NCBI RefSeq assembly: GCF_009389715.1
Contig: NC_052393.1
Coordinates: 6,510,001-6,574,000 of the forward strand
DNA from: Phoenix dactylifera
Lineage: Eukaryota > Streptophyta > Magnoliopsida > Arecales > Arecaceae
Reading direction: 5' to 3'
DNA: 64,000 bases
The position numbers were made by a program, and so were the translations under genes. This document shows positions 39,924 to 64,000 of the stretch, piece after piece; within the stretch, counting starts at the first letter, position 1; every line of letters begins with the position of its first letter. Below the pieces are notes generated by a model, which saw only the letters and a list, made by a program, of their open reading frames with translations, was not told the origin of the DNA and made no database searches.

Positions 39924-41036
39924 GTGGGTGTGAGGCCCAATAGTCCCACATCGGAAAGATTCGTTCCAGAGCCTGGGCATATGAGGCGGGTGTCTCCTAA
40001 TCCTGCAGACACGTTTTGGGTGGAAAACAAAATCGGGGAGGGGTGAAGGACGCTTGCGTGAAGCCCCAGAACCGGACAATATCTGGCAGGGGAGCCCCGT
40101 GTTCCCCCCTCATGTGGCCCCCACGTGGGCACTGGGTGCCTCACGTGCTCCGCGCAGAGGCGGGGGCGTGACATTTGGTATCAGAGCCGAGGACGGCTCT
40201 TGTCCGATGGTGTGAAGGGTGTGAGGCCCAATAGTCCCACATCGGAAAGATTCGTTCCAGAGCCTGGGCATATGAGGCGGGTGTCTCCTAATCCTGCAGA
40301 CGCGTTTTGGGTGGAAAACAAAACCGGGGAGGGGTGAAGGACGCTTGCGTGAAGCCCCAGAACCGGACAATATCTGGCAGGGGAGCCCCGTGTTCCCCCC
40401 TCATGTGGCCTCCACGTGGGCACTGGGTGCCTCACGTGCTCCGCGCAGAGGCGGGGGCGTGACAGAGGCACGTGAGGCACCCAGTGCCCATGTGGGGGCC
40501 ACATGAGGGGGGAACACGGGGCTCCCCTGCCAGATATTGTCCGATTCTGGGGCTTCACGCAAGCGTCCTTCACCCCTTCCCGGTTTTGTTTTCCACCCAA
40601 AACGCGTCTTGGGGTGAAGGACGCTTGCGTGAAGCCCCAGAACCGGACAATATCTGGCAGGGGAGCCCCGCGGTTCCCCCTCATGTGGCCCCCACATGGG
40701 CACTAGGTGCCTCACGTGCCTCGCGCAGGCGGGGGCGTGACATTTGGTATCAGAGCCGAGGACGGCTCTTGTCCGATGGTGGGAAGGGTGTGAGGCCCAA
40801 TAGTCCCACATCGGAAAGATTCGTTCCAGAGCCTGGGCATATGAGGCGGGTGTCTCCTAATCCTGCAGACGCGTTTTGGGTGGAAAACAAAACCGGGGAG
40901 GGGTGAAGGACGCTTGCGTGAAGCCCCAGAACCGGACAATATCTGGCAGGGGAGCCCCGCGGTTCCCCCTCATGTGGCCCCCACGTGGGCACTAGGTGCC
41001 TCACGTGCCTCGCGCAGGCGGGGGCGTGACAGTGGG
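39924..41036 (+). mobile_element. Compound TRIM (four LTR copies) with 5-bp target-site duplication, nested in the hAT element
   Basis: LTR1 39929-40173 (245 bp), internal 40174-40219 (46 bp), LTR2 40220-40464 (245 bp), then an inverted LTR piece (about 40467-40609), a 5'-truncated direct LTR3 (40611-40742), internal 40743-40788 (46 bp), LTR4 40789-41031 (243 bp). LTRs start TGTGAGGCCCAATAGTCCC and end GGGGGCGTGACA. Each internal segment begins TTTGGTATCAGAGCC, the initiator-Met tRNA primer-binding site. The whole array is flanked by GTGGG at 39924-39928 and 41032-41036. LTR1 and LTR2 share variants (GTGCTCCGCGCAGAGG) that differ from LTR3 and LTR4 (GTGCCTCGCGCAGG), so two subtypes are joined. 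No protein is encoded. Confidence 0.9.
40467..40742. repeat. Long inverted repeat inside the compound TRIM
   Basis: An inverted LTR fragment (about 40467-40609) abuts a direct fragment of the same LTR (40611-40742) almost without spacer. Arms of roughly 130 bases with few mismatches could form a hairpin in DNA or RNA. Confidence 0.85.
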
Positions 41037-50770: not shown

Positions 50771-53700
50771 TTCTACATTTCAGGGATTCCTTTGGAAGAG
50801 AGACATAAAAAGCCTGTAGAGGAGTCATCAGTGCGTGAAACCTCCGATCCACGATACAAGGTAAAGATACAGTACTAGCTCTTGTATCAACCTTCATGTA
50901 AGAGGCCATGGGGGACTATAAAAATGGACAACTATATTTCTTAGAAGAAGTGCATTTATGGTTTTATGTGAAAATTAATAAGTCTTAGATAGTTACCTTA
51001 ATTATAAGGGACTCTGGCCTTGTAAGGGACGGGAAGGTGAGATATTATGTTATAAATTGATAACTAGGATGAGCTCAAGTGGCAACCTTGAGTGGATAAT
51101 CTGGATATGTGGATGCTGTGACCCCTGTCCAATTTCCTTTAAAATAAGATCTTCCATTTTCCCAGAACATGGAGAGCAGGGATTTTCGTTCATCATTAGC
51201 AGTTTCCCAACAATGCGTTAATGGACCCATCGTTGTCATGCTTGGAATGGAATTTTGTTGTTCCAAGTGCCTGGTTTAAATAGGAGATCTTAAATAAACA
51301 CAAGCTACTAAATAATCATTTAACGTTTTGTCATATAAACCTAAGAAAATTTGGACATATATGACCTAATCAATCTGTCTTCCCTCTTTTCGAGCCTGAT
51401 ATTGGATACCTGTCGAATTATATTCTTGCAGTTGTGAATATTGGACGAATGCAATTGGGATGATAAAAAAAAAAACTAATAATACAAAAGATTGAGTACT
51501 AGAACTTTCACTATATATGTGTGTGTATGTCTATGTATGTATGTATATATGTGTGTATATATGTATGTATCTATGTATATGTGTGCCCACCTACAAATCA
51601 GCTAGATATGGGCGGGAAGAATGCAAATGATCTATAGGAGAAAAATTGTTGGACTTCTTAATGCAACTTCTAGAAGGCATGTAGGGGAAAATAAAAAGGA
51701 AAAATATTGCAGAAGAAGCCATTCATGTCAACCGCTTTTAGATTTTCTTACGAAGGGAATGCCGTGGGCCACCCGTTAGTGCACTTGGAAAGACATGTAG
51801 ATAAAATAATTAAGAAATTGTGCTCCATCATAAATCAAAACAATCAACCTTTTCGGTCATCATGCCCTCATTTCCTCGGCCATCCCCATACTGGCATCAC
51901 ACACAAACATGTGTACTTGTGTCTATGAACAACATCTATATATGAAATTTTTCACTATGAAAAATACAGTATCATTGTTTTCATTTCAAGCATCAGCAAA
52001 AGAAATATTTCCTAAATATTATGAGACATTCACTGGGGATTTTTACTTCTCTCACTCCAATTTACTCACATTTTTTCTTTTTAATCCAATATATGATTAT
52101 CTTTATATTCATATTTGTTTATTATCTTTTAAACGATAAAACATGAGGCATGTTGGAGCTATACAGGATAATGAATGCCTACAGCTTGTGAGGACATCTC
52201 GGAGAAAACTTCCACCTAATTATGCCTCTTTTTTTGACATGTTGGAATTGGCTTGCATTCCAGGTATTGGCTCTTTTTATAAGTTTTGTGGTTAGAGGTA
52301 AATCTATAATATGCTGTATTCGGTTGATTTTAATGAACCATATATGTTTTTGCAGTTAGATGGGCTCGGATACTTGTTTTCAACATTTTAAAGCAATGTG
52401 AGTTTTAGTATACAAGTCATACTCTTTTCTGGTAAACCTTGCTTCATTATGAGCTTGTTTTATATACTTGATCATAACTTGAATATAGATTAACTTCACA
52501 CATAAATGGTAAATTCTGAATTTTAATCTCAATTTTTTTTGTATAAACTCACTGTGTTAGCACACTATGTTTATTAAAAAAATACACTTATCTATTTTTT
52601 TAGGTTATTTCATTATTTACGCAAAAAAAATAAATTATTAATTTTGACTTCTGTTGTTATTGGATAGTGTCCACCAGAATTCAAGACCTTGAACTTCAGA
52701 AGAAAAATCATAAACAAGCTATGGAACTTATTGCTTATTTGGCTAAAGATCTTGATTACTGGGATTTTATTGACAAGGGAAGAAAACCATCAACAGCCCC
52801 GAGCGAATACTTACCAACTCCACCTGACATGATCAGCAAACCTCCAACTATTTCGTCGGGCCGAAACGAAACTTCAAAAAGTAATGAAAATCAAAGAAAA
52901 CAAGGAAACGAAAAACTTCCTGAAGTTGGCACTAATAAGAAACTTCGATGGAATGAATCACCTTTAATTCTTGGTGCAGCACTTGGCCTTCATGAGTTTG
53001 TAAAGCAAATTTTAACAGTATGTCCAGCATCTGCATCATTGCATGACACAGAGGGGAGGAATGTCCTTCAAGTGGCAATTTTGCATGGTCAGGAAAAGAT
53101 TGTTGAGATTATAGAGTCAATGGCCACAGGGAAGAATCCAGTCTTACCGTCTTGGTTGTTGTCTGAAATTGAAAAAACAACACAAAACACCATCTTGCAT
53201 TACGCTGCTGTCAAAACTGTCCAAGAAAATTTTCCTGCCACACAAATGCAATACGAGCTCCAATGGTTTGAGGTAAGATTGCTAAAAGTTTTTATTCATT
53301 TTTTCTACTACCATTAAGCTTCGTAAATGAAAAAGTAGCATACAATTCAATTGATTAACTATTATGGTACCAGAGGCATTAGCAAAATCTCAAATATGTT
53401 CTCAGTAATTACAAAAAGATTTAAAATAGTCGTGCATTTATCCACATCTACGAATATCTCATGCATGACTATTTTTGGTTATTTAAACTGTTGACCATAT
53501 AGTTGCTATAAATTGACTATTATACTTTATAATATGTTCTTCAAGCTTGATTGGAGTATTCAAATCATTTCTTACGTTATTGCTCAATGTTTCCAAATGG
53601 GCTTTGTTTCTATTTAATTTAATCTTTCTTCTATTTGAATTTTTTCGAAAAGTTTAATAAAGGAATGTTTTGTAAAATAGATTCAATCATGCACATGTGT

Positions 53701-55192
53701 GTGTTTGTGCATGCCGTAGTCCATAATTTTGAAGTGTATTGCGAGGAAATGTCTCCAACCTATTAATAACTGGCCCTGCTTAAGTTTCTTTTTGAAAAGT
53801 AAACATTGATGGCCAATATTCAATCAATATATATATAATTTTTTGATTCAGCAATTTGACTTTCTTATTTATTTTATGTTACTACCAAAATTAATAGCTT
53901 GAGATAAGAGAAGCAATTAACCTACCAATTTTAATTCATCGTTTTTCATTCAATATCATTAGGGTGTTTCTTGAATTAGAAGCCTCCACAAATCACCACG
54001 TTGATGTTGAATAACAATATTTGAGAAAATAATTGTATTAAAAAATCTTTCATAAGATGTAGGTCAACCATGCAAGTTGAGTAGGATTGATCATTGGCCG
54101 GATTTGGGCACAGAAAATGTCAATCCCAGCCTGAAGCCCAACTAAAAATGAATATAGTTTTGGCCCGAGACTCGGCCCATGATCAACCCTAACGCGGAGT
54201 TATTTGTGCTGAGTGTTGTTTTTTGGGCTAGCTAGTTTTCACCATCATTTTCATGCTTTCTTCTCCTTTTTTTTTTTTCCTTCTCTTTTCTTTTTAATTA
54301 TTTTCATCATGTTCCTCCCTTTTGTATTCATTTCATTTGTAGTAAAACATACGGTGGTCTCTCCTTCCATTTTGCTAAAAAAAAATATAGGACAAGCTGC
54401 ACACAAAGTTTCAAATTATAGATTAGTTCGTTGAAATAATCTTACATCTGTTTAAAAAATATATTTATGTGTGCATGTACACAATGTATACAAAGTTGCT
54501 TGTATATCTACTTTGATTACTTTCATATTGGGTGCAGAGGCATTTGCACAATGTACATAAAGTTGCTTGTATATTTACTTTGATTACTTTCATACGGGGT
54601 GCAGAGGGTGAAAAGGTTGGTCCGTAAAGATTTAGATTATAGCCGAAACCAAGATGAGCTAACAGCTCAAGAACTTTTCAACGAGGAACACAAGATTATG
54701 GTTCAGAATGGTAAAGAACAACTGATGGAGATGGGGAAAACATACTCAAGCCTTGTAGCGGCTGTGGTCTTTGCTTCTAGTTTCTCCATACCAGGCGATA
54801 AGGATGCTAATAATAACCCAGTTTTCCTGCATAAGACTGCTTTCAAAGTTTTCTCACATGCATATGTGATTGGATTGTCCTGTGCCGCTACAGCTTTGGT
54901 ATTATTTTTGTCTCTCTTAACCTCACCTTACAGAGTTCAAGAATTCCGCCGCTCGATACCTACGAAGTACTTTTTTGCTAATGTGTCTTTCTCTCTCGCA
55001 TTGGTGGCTCTATTAGTGGCGTTCACATGTAACATCTACCTAAATATATATGGCGGAAGAAAGGCACAGACAAAGGATCTTGTACCGCTTGTGTGTGAGC
55101 TTACCATCTTTCCGGTAGTGTGTTTGTTTGTGTTACTTTATCGGGGCGCTTCCTTTGGATTTGGCTCCTTCACGCGACGTGTTTGGCGTTAG
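49367..55192 (+). CDS. Ankyrin-repeat protein with PGG membrane domain (ACD6/ITN1-like)
   Basis: Exons consistent in phase: 49367-49925, 50037-50186, 50784-50860, 52167-52263, 52356-52397, 52668-53272, 54605-55192, giving 705 codons. The 5' edge of exon 4 is the least certain; another in-phase acceptor lies 15 bases on. Ankyrin repeats: DDTALHVAAEMGDESVVEALV (107-127), EIPLHKAALFGRRRIFWDLV (141-160), DGATMLHCAVVGKA (172-185), and later SPLILGAALGLHEFVKQI, GRNVLQVAILHGQEKIVEII and NTILHYAA. Residues 511-705 form the PGG domain (MGKTYSSLVAAVVFASSFSIPGD) with four predicted membrane helices near 557-573, 594-616, 634-657 and 671-689. Studied members act at membranes in immunity, salicylate or salt responses. 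An upstream in-frame ATG is cut off by a stop, which supports the start used. The last intron has a duplicated 3' splice site. Confidence 0.9.
54481..54607 (+). repeat. Tandem duplication of the last intron's 3' splice site
   Basis: Two 60-bp copies, 54481-54540 and 54548-54607, share ACAATGTA..., AAAGTTGCTTGTATAT, TTTGATTACTTTCATA and end GGTGCAGAGG. Both contain the acceptor CAG followed by AGG. Only the second keeps the reading frame of the final exon. Confidence 0.92.
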
Positions 55193-60912: not shown

Positions 60913-61937
60913 GGCCCTGTTTGGGGGAGCTGTTGGCAATAGAGTTGTTGGAAGTAGAGCTGTTCGAAGTAGAGCTGTTGGAAGTAGAGCTTTTATAAAA
61001 AGCTGTTTGCTGTTTGGTAACTACATTTCTAAAGTGCTGTGGCGCTTTAACATTTGTTTGGTAAACAAACTGAGAAAGTACTTTTGTATGACAAAATGAC
61101 CATAAAGGACATTAGTAGTATTATACAATAGTGCATAATAAAATATAATATATATTAATACATAAATATATGATATAGTCTAATATTAATGTAATATAAT
61201 ATTATATTATTATAACATAGTACTATAACATTGTATACTATAGGATAATAATTTGATATAATATTAAATTATTTAACATAACATAATATTATATTTTATT
61301 TTATTTATAGTATAATGCAATAATAAATGTATAAAATATTATAATTATTAGTATAAATTAATTTTTCACTCTTTTGATGACCATTTATTTCTCTAACAAA
61401 TTTTCTAGCTAGATGAAAAAATTAGTTAAATAATTACTAATATTTTTATTTATTTATTTATTTATTTATTCTTTCATTTATATACATATTTATTTATTTA
61501 TTTATTTTCTTTTTTTCCTTTTTTTTCTTTCCTTTTTCTTCTTTTTCTTTCCCTTTCTTTTTTCTTCTCTTCTTCTCCTTCGTTCCTCCTTTTCCTTCTT
61601 CTCCTTTCTTCTCCCGCGAGGCCGGTGGCGCCGGAAGAGGGCCGGGTCGCGGCGGCCGCGGGAGGAGGCCCGGGAGGGGAGTGGGACGGTGGGCCCCGGC
61701 GACCGCGGGGGGAGGGGGGCTCGGGAGGAGGCCGGGACGGCGGGCTGTGGCGACCGCGGGGGAGGGGGGCTCGGGAGGGGGCCGGGACGGCGGGTCGCGG
61801 GGGGAGGGGGGCTCGGGAGGAGGCCGGGACGGCCGGCTGTGGCGACCGCGAGGGGAGGGGGGCTCGGGAGGGGGCCGGGACGGCGGGCCACGGGGGGAGG
61901 GGGGCCTCGGGAGGGGGCCGGGACGGCGGGCTGCGGC
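60911..61937. mobile_element. GGCCC-ended DNA transposon (family B, copy 2, 3'-truncated)
   Basis: It starts AGGCCCTGTTTGGGGGAGCTG and matches the element at 44825 through the GTAGAGCTGTT repeats, GTTTGCTGTTTGGTAACTA, the AT-rich block, the ATTT repeats and the T/C tract. It then enters a GC-rich block. It ends abruptly at 61937 inside that block, where the duplicated ankyrin segment begins. The right terminal repeat is missing. Confidence 0.8.
61690..61937. repeat. G-rich tandem repeat, ~five units of about 40-51 bp
   Basis: Units follow the pattern GCGGGGGGAGGGGGGCTCGG, then GAGG(A/G)GGCCGGGACGGCGGG, with or without CTGTGGCGACC. The plus strand carries many runs of three or more G, so G-quadruplex formation is likely. 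The equivalent GC-rich block in the copy at 45.9-46.2 kb lacks this expansion. Confidence 0.85.
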
Positions 61938-64000
61938 GCCTAATTTCTTTAATTGTTAAATTGAATACCTAGGTCTCTTAGAAACAAACCAACTAGCTAA
62001 TTTAAACCACTCCCATAAGTTAAGAACGGCTTGGCTTCGTGTGGCATAGCAGCACTTTGGTTGCTGAAGAGACTTTTACGAAAGTAACGGCTGGCCCTCA
62101 CAGAATCCGACAGCATGCATTAATCCTCCAACTGCAAGCAAATTAGCAGAAGGAAGTAAGGCATCCAATCCAAATCACCTTTTGTCGTGTCTATATAATG
62201 CTCTATTTCATGCAATCCAGAAGCAAGAGCTTTTGCCACCCTCCCTTTGAAATCTCCACCATCGTGGGCAGTCCAGGTGAAGGCATGTCAGCAACTTTTC
62301 CTGTTGGAGGCACCACCATGGGCAGTCCAGGTGGAGGCATGCCTGCTTCCTCTGCAGGGGATGCAGGGGACACCCCCGCCATACTTCTTGACAAGGATTT
62401 CCTCAAAAAGTTCCGCGTTATGGACGATGCTATACGGCATGACAACTTGCGGGAGCTCCTGAAGCATGTTGAGGGACCTGTGAACCTATCGGGGGACCCG
62501 TTGCTCAGCGTGGTGATCGCCTGCGGGGAAGAGCAAGCTCGCGATCAAGCTGTTGGCGAACATGCCACCGGAGAAACTAATGGACAAGAATTTTAATGAC
62601 GACACAGCCCTCCATGTGGCGGTGGAGGAGGGAGATGAGAGGGTGGTGGAGGCATTGGTCAAAAAGAATACCACCCAGCTCAACCTGCTCGGGCTAAGAA
62701 CAAGCAGAAGGAGATCCCGCTGCACAAGGCCGCGCTGTTCGGACAGAGCCGAATCTTCTGGAACCTGGTGAGGCACGGGCACTGCAGCGACGTGTTTGCA
62801 TTGAAGGAGAACGGCGACAAACATCTTGCATTGTGCCATCGTGAGCAAGGCACCCGGTTCGTACCAATACCATGCATTTTTTTTTTTTTTTTTGAGCAAA
62901 GTACCATCTCTCTGATAAAGTACTACGGGCAACTTTATCTTTAAGTTTTTTTTTTTGGTACATCTTTATCTTTAAGTTCATACTTGTTTTTTTCTATCAA
63001 GTTTTCGGCATGGATTTTAGAGCGAAAAGAAAATTCTTCACTTTACTTTCAGTGTAAAGCTGTTGAACCTCCATCAGTCATATAATCTATGCTTCTTTTT
63101 TTTTTTGATGGTAATATAATCCATGCTTTTTAAGAAGCACAATACTTTTTATTAGAGATTCGGCACCACTCATTGCTTGTTCCTGTACATGTTTTGTAGA
63201 GCTGGCATTGGAGATAGCAACAAAGTATCAAAACTGATGTCTCGTCGGAATACAAAGGCTGTCACACCTTTACAGCTAATGGTGACCATTCCGGAGGCAT
63301 TTCCAAGCCAATCTGAGCTTGGGCCTCTTGAATCCCTCATCTATGAATGTTAGCACTCTACTCTCTCTTTTTCCTATTTGTAGTGGTTTAGAGAGAAAAT
63401 AGAAGTCTCTGATTTTAATGTGATATTGAAAATTAATTGCGCTATCATATTCTCCTTTCCGATCGATTACCTAAAAAAGAACCTTGATGCGAACATTCAT
63501 TGCAGAGTTCCGAACAAAACCATCGTATATTAGTTCATAAATAACCTTTCCAATTTTTAACACACAATATCAACAATATCTAATTTCAGAACCTATTATC
63601 ACTTGCTTTTTTTTTGAGAAAACAAACCCTATCATCATTGGCTTATCTCTTTGAGCAAGCTAGCACAACTGCTCCAAATGTTCCAATTGTTCCACAAATC
63701 CTCTACGCCCCCTCTCCTCCAGTATTCCCTGGTACTTGGGTGCTGTACTGTAAGCCTCAGGAAGACTGAGCACCATCACCCAAAAACCATAAGATATGAT
63801 AAATTAAGAAATGGTATAGGTAAAGAATTTCTAAGAAATGGCACTAGGTAAAAAATTATACAAATAAAATCGATTTATTTACCTATAGATTTACTTGTTT
63901 TGTTTTGTACAATCATGTCATAAGCCATTACTTACTGTCGATCCTAACTATGGTGGGATTTATGAAACATGTCATAGCTTAGCATATACCTTAGTCCCAT
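61938..64000 (+). pseudogene. Segmental duplicate of the ankyrin/PGG gene, decayed; runs off the window
   Basis: It matches 49031-50770 closely through promoter (here a better TATATAA near 62190), exon 1, intron 1, exon 2 and intron 2. The original start codon is GTG at 62264-62266, but a local duplication supplies another ATG at 62318. An extra G in the run 62525-62528 shifts the frame after SVVIACG, ending at 62596. More small indels follow near 62690 and 62820. Exon 2 has lost one base, giving an in-frame TGA at 63235-63237. Intron 1 is longer by about 200 bases (62876-63120, with T runs). The splice sites AG at about 63199 and GT at about 63349 survive. It cannot encode the full protein unless the indels are assembly errors. 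Confidence 0.88.

Follow-up and report, generated by a model that had tools for sequence, protein, structure and literature searches.

A four-LTR TRIM array with an inverted LTR fragment inside one target-site duplication in date palm, and the junction bases of its relatives

INTRODUCTION

Tandem and inverted TRIM arrays with one target-site duplication (TSD) have already been published. The TA-TRIMs of Gao et al. (2016), found in 35 of 43 plant genomes, fall into 129 subfamilies; TSDs are given for maize arrays, including two inverted TRIMs flanked by CTTCA (Fig. 2 legend). The species table of that paper gives nine TRIM families for date palm (PMC4717578). The sections of the paper compared here describe multi-LTR arrays like the one treated below and give no junction analysis or mechanism. 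Complex elements of the Triticeae likewise carry extra LTRs within one TSD pair and were read as one composite integration, with outer LTRs that are highly alike (Sabot and Schulman 2007, PMC1950507). Among rice tandem LTR-retrotransposons, which form TSD-flanked arrays, one was argued to be a single insertion, and in the parts consulted the choice between complex insertion and recombination was left open (Morales-Diaz et al. 2025, PMC11899658). The Cassandra TRIMs likewise form long alternating LTR-INT arrays (INT, internal segment), for which both recombination and template switching have been proposed (Kalendar et al. 2020, PMC7215508), and unequal crossing-over was suggested for Wukong arrays (PMC4528315). 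Small indels at the LTR-LTR junction are regarded as typical of free cDNA circles closed by end-joining, such as carrot Alex1 and Alex3 (PMC9324142).

The array described here lies at positions 39924-41036 of the window, i.e., the whole 64,000-nucleotide stretch of date palm DNA that was analyzed. Compared with the TA-TRIMs as described in the sections consulted, it combines truncated pieces, three LTR subtypes and a partial inverted LTR, and the joins found in its family resemble cDNA ends. Its outer LTRs differ and one of its parts is inverted, which sets it apart from the Triticeae complex elements. It is also unlike the rice arrays, which share internal LTRs, and unlike Cassandra, whose LTRs carry a 5S rRNA sequence (PMC7215508) that was not detected in this element. 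Whereas the Alex1 and Alex3 joins sit in free extrachromosomal circles (PMC9324142), similar joins are found here inside chromosomal arrays. The array is less unusual than the original prediction implied, since other TRIM arrays are in print and one of them is an inverted pair inside a single TSD (PMC4717578). The combination not seen in the literature compared is that of cDNA-end bases at joins within chromosomal arrays with TSD-flanked arrays that have U5 ends on both outer sides (U5/U5); neither such joins in inserted TRIM arrays nor U5/U5 insertions were recognized in the literature searched, which does not prove their absence. By itself, the array at 39924-41036 is of moderate interest; its family is of more, since there the question of how arrays form can be tested from sequence.

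RESULTS AND DISCUSSION

Structure of the array

The array consists of three complete LTRs (243 to 245 bp), a left-truncated LTR, an inverted LTR fragment and two INTs, placed between a GTGGG pair as follows.

39924..39928, unstranded: left TSD, GTGGG
39929..40173, plus strand: LTR1, complete, subtype A, 245 bp, TG...CA
40174..40219, plus strand: INT1, 46 bp, with TT spacer, primer site (PBS) and purine tract
40176-40187, within INT1: PBS TGGTATCAGAGC, iMet-type, assigned by eye
40214-40219, end of INT1: purine tract (PPT) GAAGGG, assigned by eye
40220..40464, plus strand: LTR2, complete, subtype A, terminating at CA
40465..40609, minus strand: inverted LTR fragment, LTR positions 223 to 79, third subtype, from sequence comparison
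40610..40610, unstranded: filler base T at the inversion junction, 1 nt
40611..40742, plus strand: LTR3, 5'-truncated, beginning at LTR position 112, subtype C
40743..40788, plus strand: INT2, 46 bp, one base different from INT1
40789..41031, plus strand: LTR4, complete, subtype C
41032..41036, unstranded: right TSD, GTGGG

The tRNA behind this PBS is presumably of the initiator-Met type. Sequence comparison bore out the layout of four LTRs and an inverted piece that the original prediction had given, together with its coordinates and junctions. The repeated element is a TRIM: the 46-bp INT is too short for a coding domain, and the mechanical open reading frames, of up to 167 amino acids, run across the repeats. 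The INT had been called very short even for TRIMs, and indeed the published sizes of FRetro129 (292 bp with 85-bp LTRs; PMC3281118) and CcaRetroS9 (233 bp with 52-bp LTRs; PMC4717578) imply longer INTs, as far as these sources were consulted. With more than two LTRs and more than one internal segment inside one TSD pair, the array has the structure by which TA-TRIMs are defined. Of the two features by which Sabot and Schulman recognized composite integration, the flanking TSD is present and the likeness of the outermost LTRs is absent. An Rfam search returned 11 matches, all below the gathering score and most of them over the palindromic part, and no 5S rRNA match to the LTR at E up to 1; identity with Cassandra was therefore rejected.

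The GTGGG pair is the single perfect one, as had been predicted: inspection by eye of the internal junctions revealed no 5-bp repeat around the inverted piece or the second half. A nested insertion was rejected on this ground. Recombination between two separately inserted elements, which had been offered as an alternative origin, is disfavored because matching outer TSDs would not be expected to remain.

LTR subtypes within the array

The prediction that LTR1/LTR2 and LTR3/LTR4 belong to different subtypes held. There are 3 differences in 245 positions between LTR1 and LTR2 and 1 in 132 between LTR3 and LTR4, whereas LTR1 and LTR4 show 8 in 243 and, in addition, a 2-base gap (the larger alignment gives 10). 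Among the complete LTRs the outermost pair is thus the least alike (10 differences, against 3 and 9 for the other pairs). The inverted fragment (LTR positions 79-223) shows 5 to 7 differences from each of the four other LTR pieces; fold-back copying was rejected as its source on account of these differences. Because each half has matching LTRs and the halves and the fragment differ from one another, at least three source molecules are indicated. The matched pair makes each half look like a reverse-transcription product of its own, and the fragment, judged by its sequence, looks like the product of a third reverse transcription separate from both.

These distances bear on the model of Sabot and Schulman (2007), in which template switching between RNAs, or transcription of a concatemer followed by reverse transcription, generates the array within one cycle. 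It was put forward for three-LTR complexes with TSDs (PMC1950507), and some relatives of the array lean toward it: in 6 of 25 arrays (L009, L019, L033, L036, L047 and L061), the two outermost complete LTRs differ less from each other than the remaining pairs do on average. The clearest of them with a perfect TSD is L033 (5 versus 7.6), while L047 continues into another LTR family and L061 lacks a TSD. In the remaining 19 arrays the outer pair is not closer, and at 39924-41036 the outermost LTRs are the most different, opposite to what the model predicts. We consider this origin highly improbable for the array. The original prediction had offered a template-switched or a concatemeric cDNA as source. 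If a single RNA of either sort were reverse transcribed in the ordinary way, the outermost LTRs should match; since LTR1 and LTR4 do not, joining of separate cDNAs fits better.

The LTR2/fragment (40464/40465) and fragment/LTR3 (40609/40611) junctions were searched for in the 773-Mb assembly of 2391 contigs with patterns of 23 and 27 bases, allowing up to 2 mismatches, and each occurs once. There is thus no sign that the compound multiplies itself, and its existence as a transposing unit was set aside. Locus L009 (C9) covers 1094 of the 1113 bases of the array at 89%; it was rejected as a second copy of the compound, as it has no inverted piece.

Target-site duplications of related arrays

A genome search for the TRIM family yielded 282 match segments and scored 40 of 1081 first-look candidates; these 40 loci are a sample that likely favors dense arrays near in sequence to 39924-41036. 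A second sample consisted of 15 loci picked by LTR-LTR or tail-to-tail junction patterns. In the first 40 loci, 41 groups measure 500 bp or more (two of them in L026), and identical 5-mers flank 26 of the 41, while in the control such 5-mers are shared by 4 of 1638 cross-locus pairs. The outer GTGGG pair of the array at 39924-41036 is beyond chance.

Arrays with at least three LTR pieces make up 21 of the 41 groups, a count that omits L018 (no TSD, third piece of 21 bp). A perfect outer TSD flanks 16 of the 21, so that other arrays with their own 5-bp duplications, as anticipated, are present. Among the others, the TSD of L038 matches in 4 of 5 bases, and L025, L026, L030 and L047, without a perfect TSD, adjoin the end of another LTR family. 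In L011 (2002-3680) the right end lies inside the INT, yet GGATA follows as on the left; this TSD is doubtful and may reflect chance or the use of a truncated end.

In the pattern-chosen loci, perfect TSDs were found in 2 of 17 groups (L059, where it lies within an AT repeat, and L062), and single insertion is therefore not established for these loci. Five of the 17 groups (two in L051, and L052, L053 and L054) continue into primer-site-like sequence, the ends of the insertion not being reached, and L060 is truncated by the locus edge.

The five inverted arrays of the first 40 loci (L001, L010, L012, L020 and L044) all have perfect TSDs; at a sixth inverted locus, L058, found through the tail-to-tail pattern, no TSD was seen at its boundaries. 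Inverted repeats are a known failure of long-read assembly, which gives an assembly artefact some initial plausibility for the array. It is nevertheless hardly credible, since misreading does not account for perfect TSDs at five of five inverted arrays, the flanks of which are by eye not inverted copies, as a misread palindrome would repeat its flank. Moreover, two of the LTR-LTR joins described below are present on two contigs each (L048/L055 and L057/L059).

Distances between LTRs within arrays are mixed across the family. In L022 (2001-3110), the adjacent differences among four LTRs are 14, 12 and 12, and the closest pair differs by 2; two LTR subtypes seem to alternate in its sequence, a pattern that the doubling of a mixed dimer would give.

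Bases at the LTR-LTR junctions

An exact pattern of LTR end, up to 12 bases and LTR start was searched for genome-wide and matched 38 sites, of which 22 were read in context; the reversed control pattern matched none. GG stands directly before the LTR start in all 38 joins, as exactly GG and not GGG in 32, and the fill begins with TT in 24. The commonest fills are TTTGG (8), TTGG (7), TTAGG (4) and GG (4). In the INT, TT is the spacer from the LTR end to the PBS and GG the final two bases ahead of the downstream LTR. Linear cDNA of the retroviral type would be expected to carry such short end extensions before trimming by integrase, and joins with TT and GG are therefore expected from blunt joining of unprocessed cDNA ends.

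Outer LTR starts served as a control. Where they lie beside chromosomal DNA with a perfect TSD, GG precedes them in 3 of 23 cases (Fisher p 2.8e-13). In the same listing, which left out three haplotig loci (L016, L055 and L057) and groups below 200 bp, GG precedes 11 of the 12 outer starts that lack a perfect TSD, or 7 of 8 when L042, L043, L050 and L056 are removed. At these four loci, and thus in at least 4 of the 38 joins, the left partner is another LTR family. Two likely haplotig pairs are contained in the 38 (C221/C1377, at L048/L055, 98.9% alike; C5/C2205, at L059/L057, 97.4% alike), so that the independent events are fewer, and one fill is common to C206 and C1594.

The TTTGG fill alone could be an internal deletion at GG microhomology. 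A mixture of TTGG, TGG, GG and TTAGG with a constant GG is harder to explain in this way. Locus L044 adds a join in the other direction: two left ends meet as CACA-CC-GG-TGTG, at the sole site matched by an exact head-to-head pattern of complete left ends, and this is what blunt-joined GG ends would give.

Arrays with U5 ends on both sides

Three of the inverted arrays, L012 (TSD AATCA), L020 (ATATT) and L044 (ATGAT), have U5 ends on both outer sides and perfect TSDs. Since an ordinary insertion leaves one U3 and one U5 end outside, these arrays were probably joined before integration, as their end sequences suggest. An exchange between inverted LTRs inside an array would be expected to leave the terminal bases next to the TSD unchanged.

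On both arms of L012, nine of ten complete LTRs differ by 0 or 1, the outermost left one by 7, and 7 of the 9 INTs carry the base variant present at the junction. One strand is predicted to form a hairpin with a paired 3' end at the INT/LTR boundary (-11.9 kcal/mol, z -2.66, equaled by 4 of 200 shuffles). In this folding model, L012 looks like the result of fold-back copying, and its unequal arms would need later change. As the exact junction pattern matched L012 alone in the assembly, a second fold-back junction of this type was not found, and recurrence of this type was rejected.

Uniform arrays with shared LTRs, of which the nearly identical LTRs of L012 are an example, would also suit unequal crossing-over between LTRs after insertion, which enlarges a single element and retains its outer TSD. 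By itself, such crossing-over cannot yield the inverted fragment, the truncated LTRs and the two subtypes found at 39924-41036; given the inverted and truncated parts it was set aside for this array, where we deem it extremely unlikely.

The divergent LTRs of L044 and L020 fit ligation. In L020, a right end followed by TT is joined to left-truncated LTRs that begin at position 79 (twice), 103 and 209; left truncation is common to these LTRs and to LTR3 of the array at 39924-41036. The exact pattern of right end, TT and position 79 matches only L020 in the assembly, and the two joins at this position may be one duplicated event. As a stand-in for the empty site of L020, a diverged downstream repeat unit aligns without gaps across the insertion point, and an upstream unit aligns with gaps.

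Position 79 lies 29 bases past the start of a TATA-like CATATGA. LTR pieces ending there occur in L020 (2001-2165 and 2746-2910) and in the array at 39924-41036 (40465-40609). To judge from these sequences, the position may mark the 5' end of the RNA, and the pieces may be strong-stop DNA.

Origin of the array at 39924-41036

For the family, U5/U5 arrays with perfect TSDs together with cDNA-end bases at the joins support integration of arrays that were already joined. For the array at 39924-41036, in which the two LTRs of either half match each other, integration in the joined state is the best reading, and the proposal of the original prediction that the whole array entered as one unit stands to that extent. 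Its own joins lack the TT/GG signature (LTR2 stops at CA, and elsewhere the pieces meet at truncated ends), and on the outside it has ordinary ends, not U5/U5.

We hold with reasonable confidence that the array was put together as a composite outside the chromosome and entered it in a single insertion. Several double-stranded cDNAs of the non-autonomous TRIM would have been made in trans by the enzymes of another element. End-joining of a complete molecule (LTR1-INT-LTR2), a reversed partial product and a left-truncated molecule (LTR3-INT-LTR4) would then have given the composite. Integrase would have used its two outermost LTR ends, so that the whole entered one site and one 5-bp duplication resulted. 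We infer that the joining was end-joining in the particle or the nucleus, that integrase inserted the product, and that the array shared this route with its relatives.

The ordinary outer ends and the joins without GG or TT would also be compatible with repair of an inserted element, a less likely course that nonetheless deserves weight. In that case a normal TRIM (LTR1-INT-LTR2) was inserted first, and when LTR2 or the DNA beside it broke later, the gap was filled with pieces of other TRIM copies or free cDNA, by template-switching repair or cDNA recombination, with the TSD kept. The LTR2/fragment and fragment/LTR3 junctions do resemble patchwork repair, and integrase-independent entry into resident elements is mentioned for yeast in the part of the rice study consulted (PMC11899658). 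For repair, however, the exchange would have had to end within the final few bases of the array, because the second subtype persists in LTR4 until about 16 bases before the right end. It also leaves the U5/U5 arrays with TSDs and the TT/GG joins of the family unexplained.

Joining outside the chromosome followed by a single insertion could have a wider bearing. We put forward, tentatively and with more doubt than conviction, that concatenation of cDNA before integration is a regular route of the family. Unprocessed linear cDNAs and partial products, sometimes together with other LTR families, would be blunt-joined in either direction. Some molecules would fold back and prime themselves, as the near-identical arms of L012 suggest. 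Integrase would accept any two outer LTR ends, U5/U5 included, giving palindromic insertions with ordinary 5-bp duplications. Array by array, junction bases and U5/U5 ends offer a simple sequence test of the route of formation. If the pattern holds in other TRIM families, arrays would preserve, like fossils, the ends of cDNA before integration, and it would become testable whether the integrase of a plant LTR element naturally integrates U5/U5 molecules.

Composites with other LTR families and other features of the window

In L025, L047 and L026, another LTR family adjoins the left side of TRIM arrays. The partner LTRs of L025 and L047 are 98.4% alike over 1462 bp, and the partner LTR ends in TTTGGGGCGTGACA (TTTGGGACGTGACA in L047), with an iMet-type primer site next to it. 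A 593-bp left-truncated piece of the partner LTR is joined in L026 to a TRIM right end plus T's. In the arrays joined to other LTR families, the sequence read stopped short of the far ends at which a TSD would lie. The sequences suggest inter-family composites, possibly with the partner that mobilizes the TRIM; other LTR families that adjoin some TRIM arrays have a like LTR end. A second long LTR family is joined to the TRIM as GTGACA-AC-GG-TGTG in L050 and as GTGACA-ACTTAAGGG-TGTG in L056, and it is joined via ACTTA into the TRIM INT in L051.

Elsewhere in the window, coding stretches at 52634-53314 and 54584-55189 encode ankyrin-repeat and PGG-domain sequence, and together they are perhaps one plant ankyrin gene. 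A GC-rich tandem repeat with units of 42 to 92 bp lies at 61660-61938.
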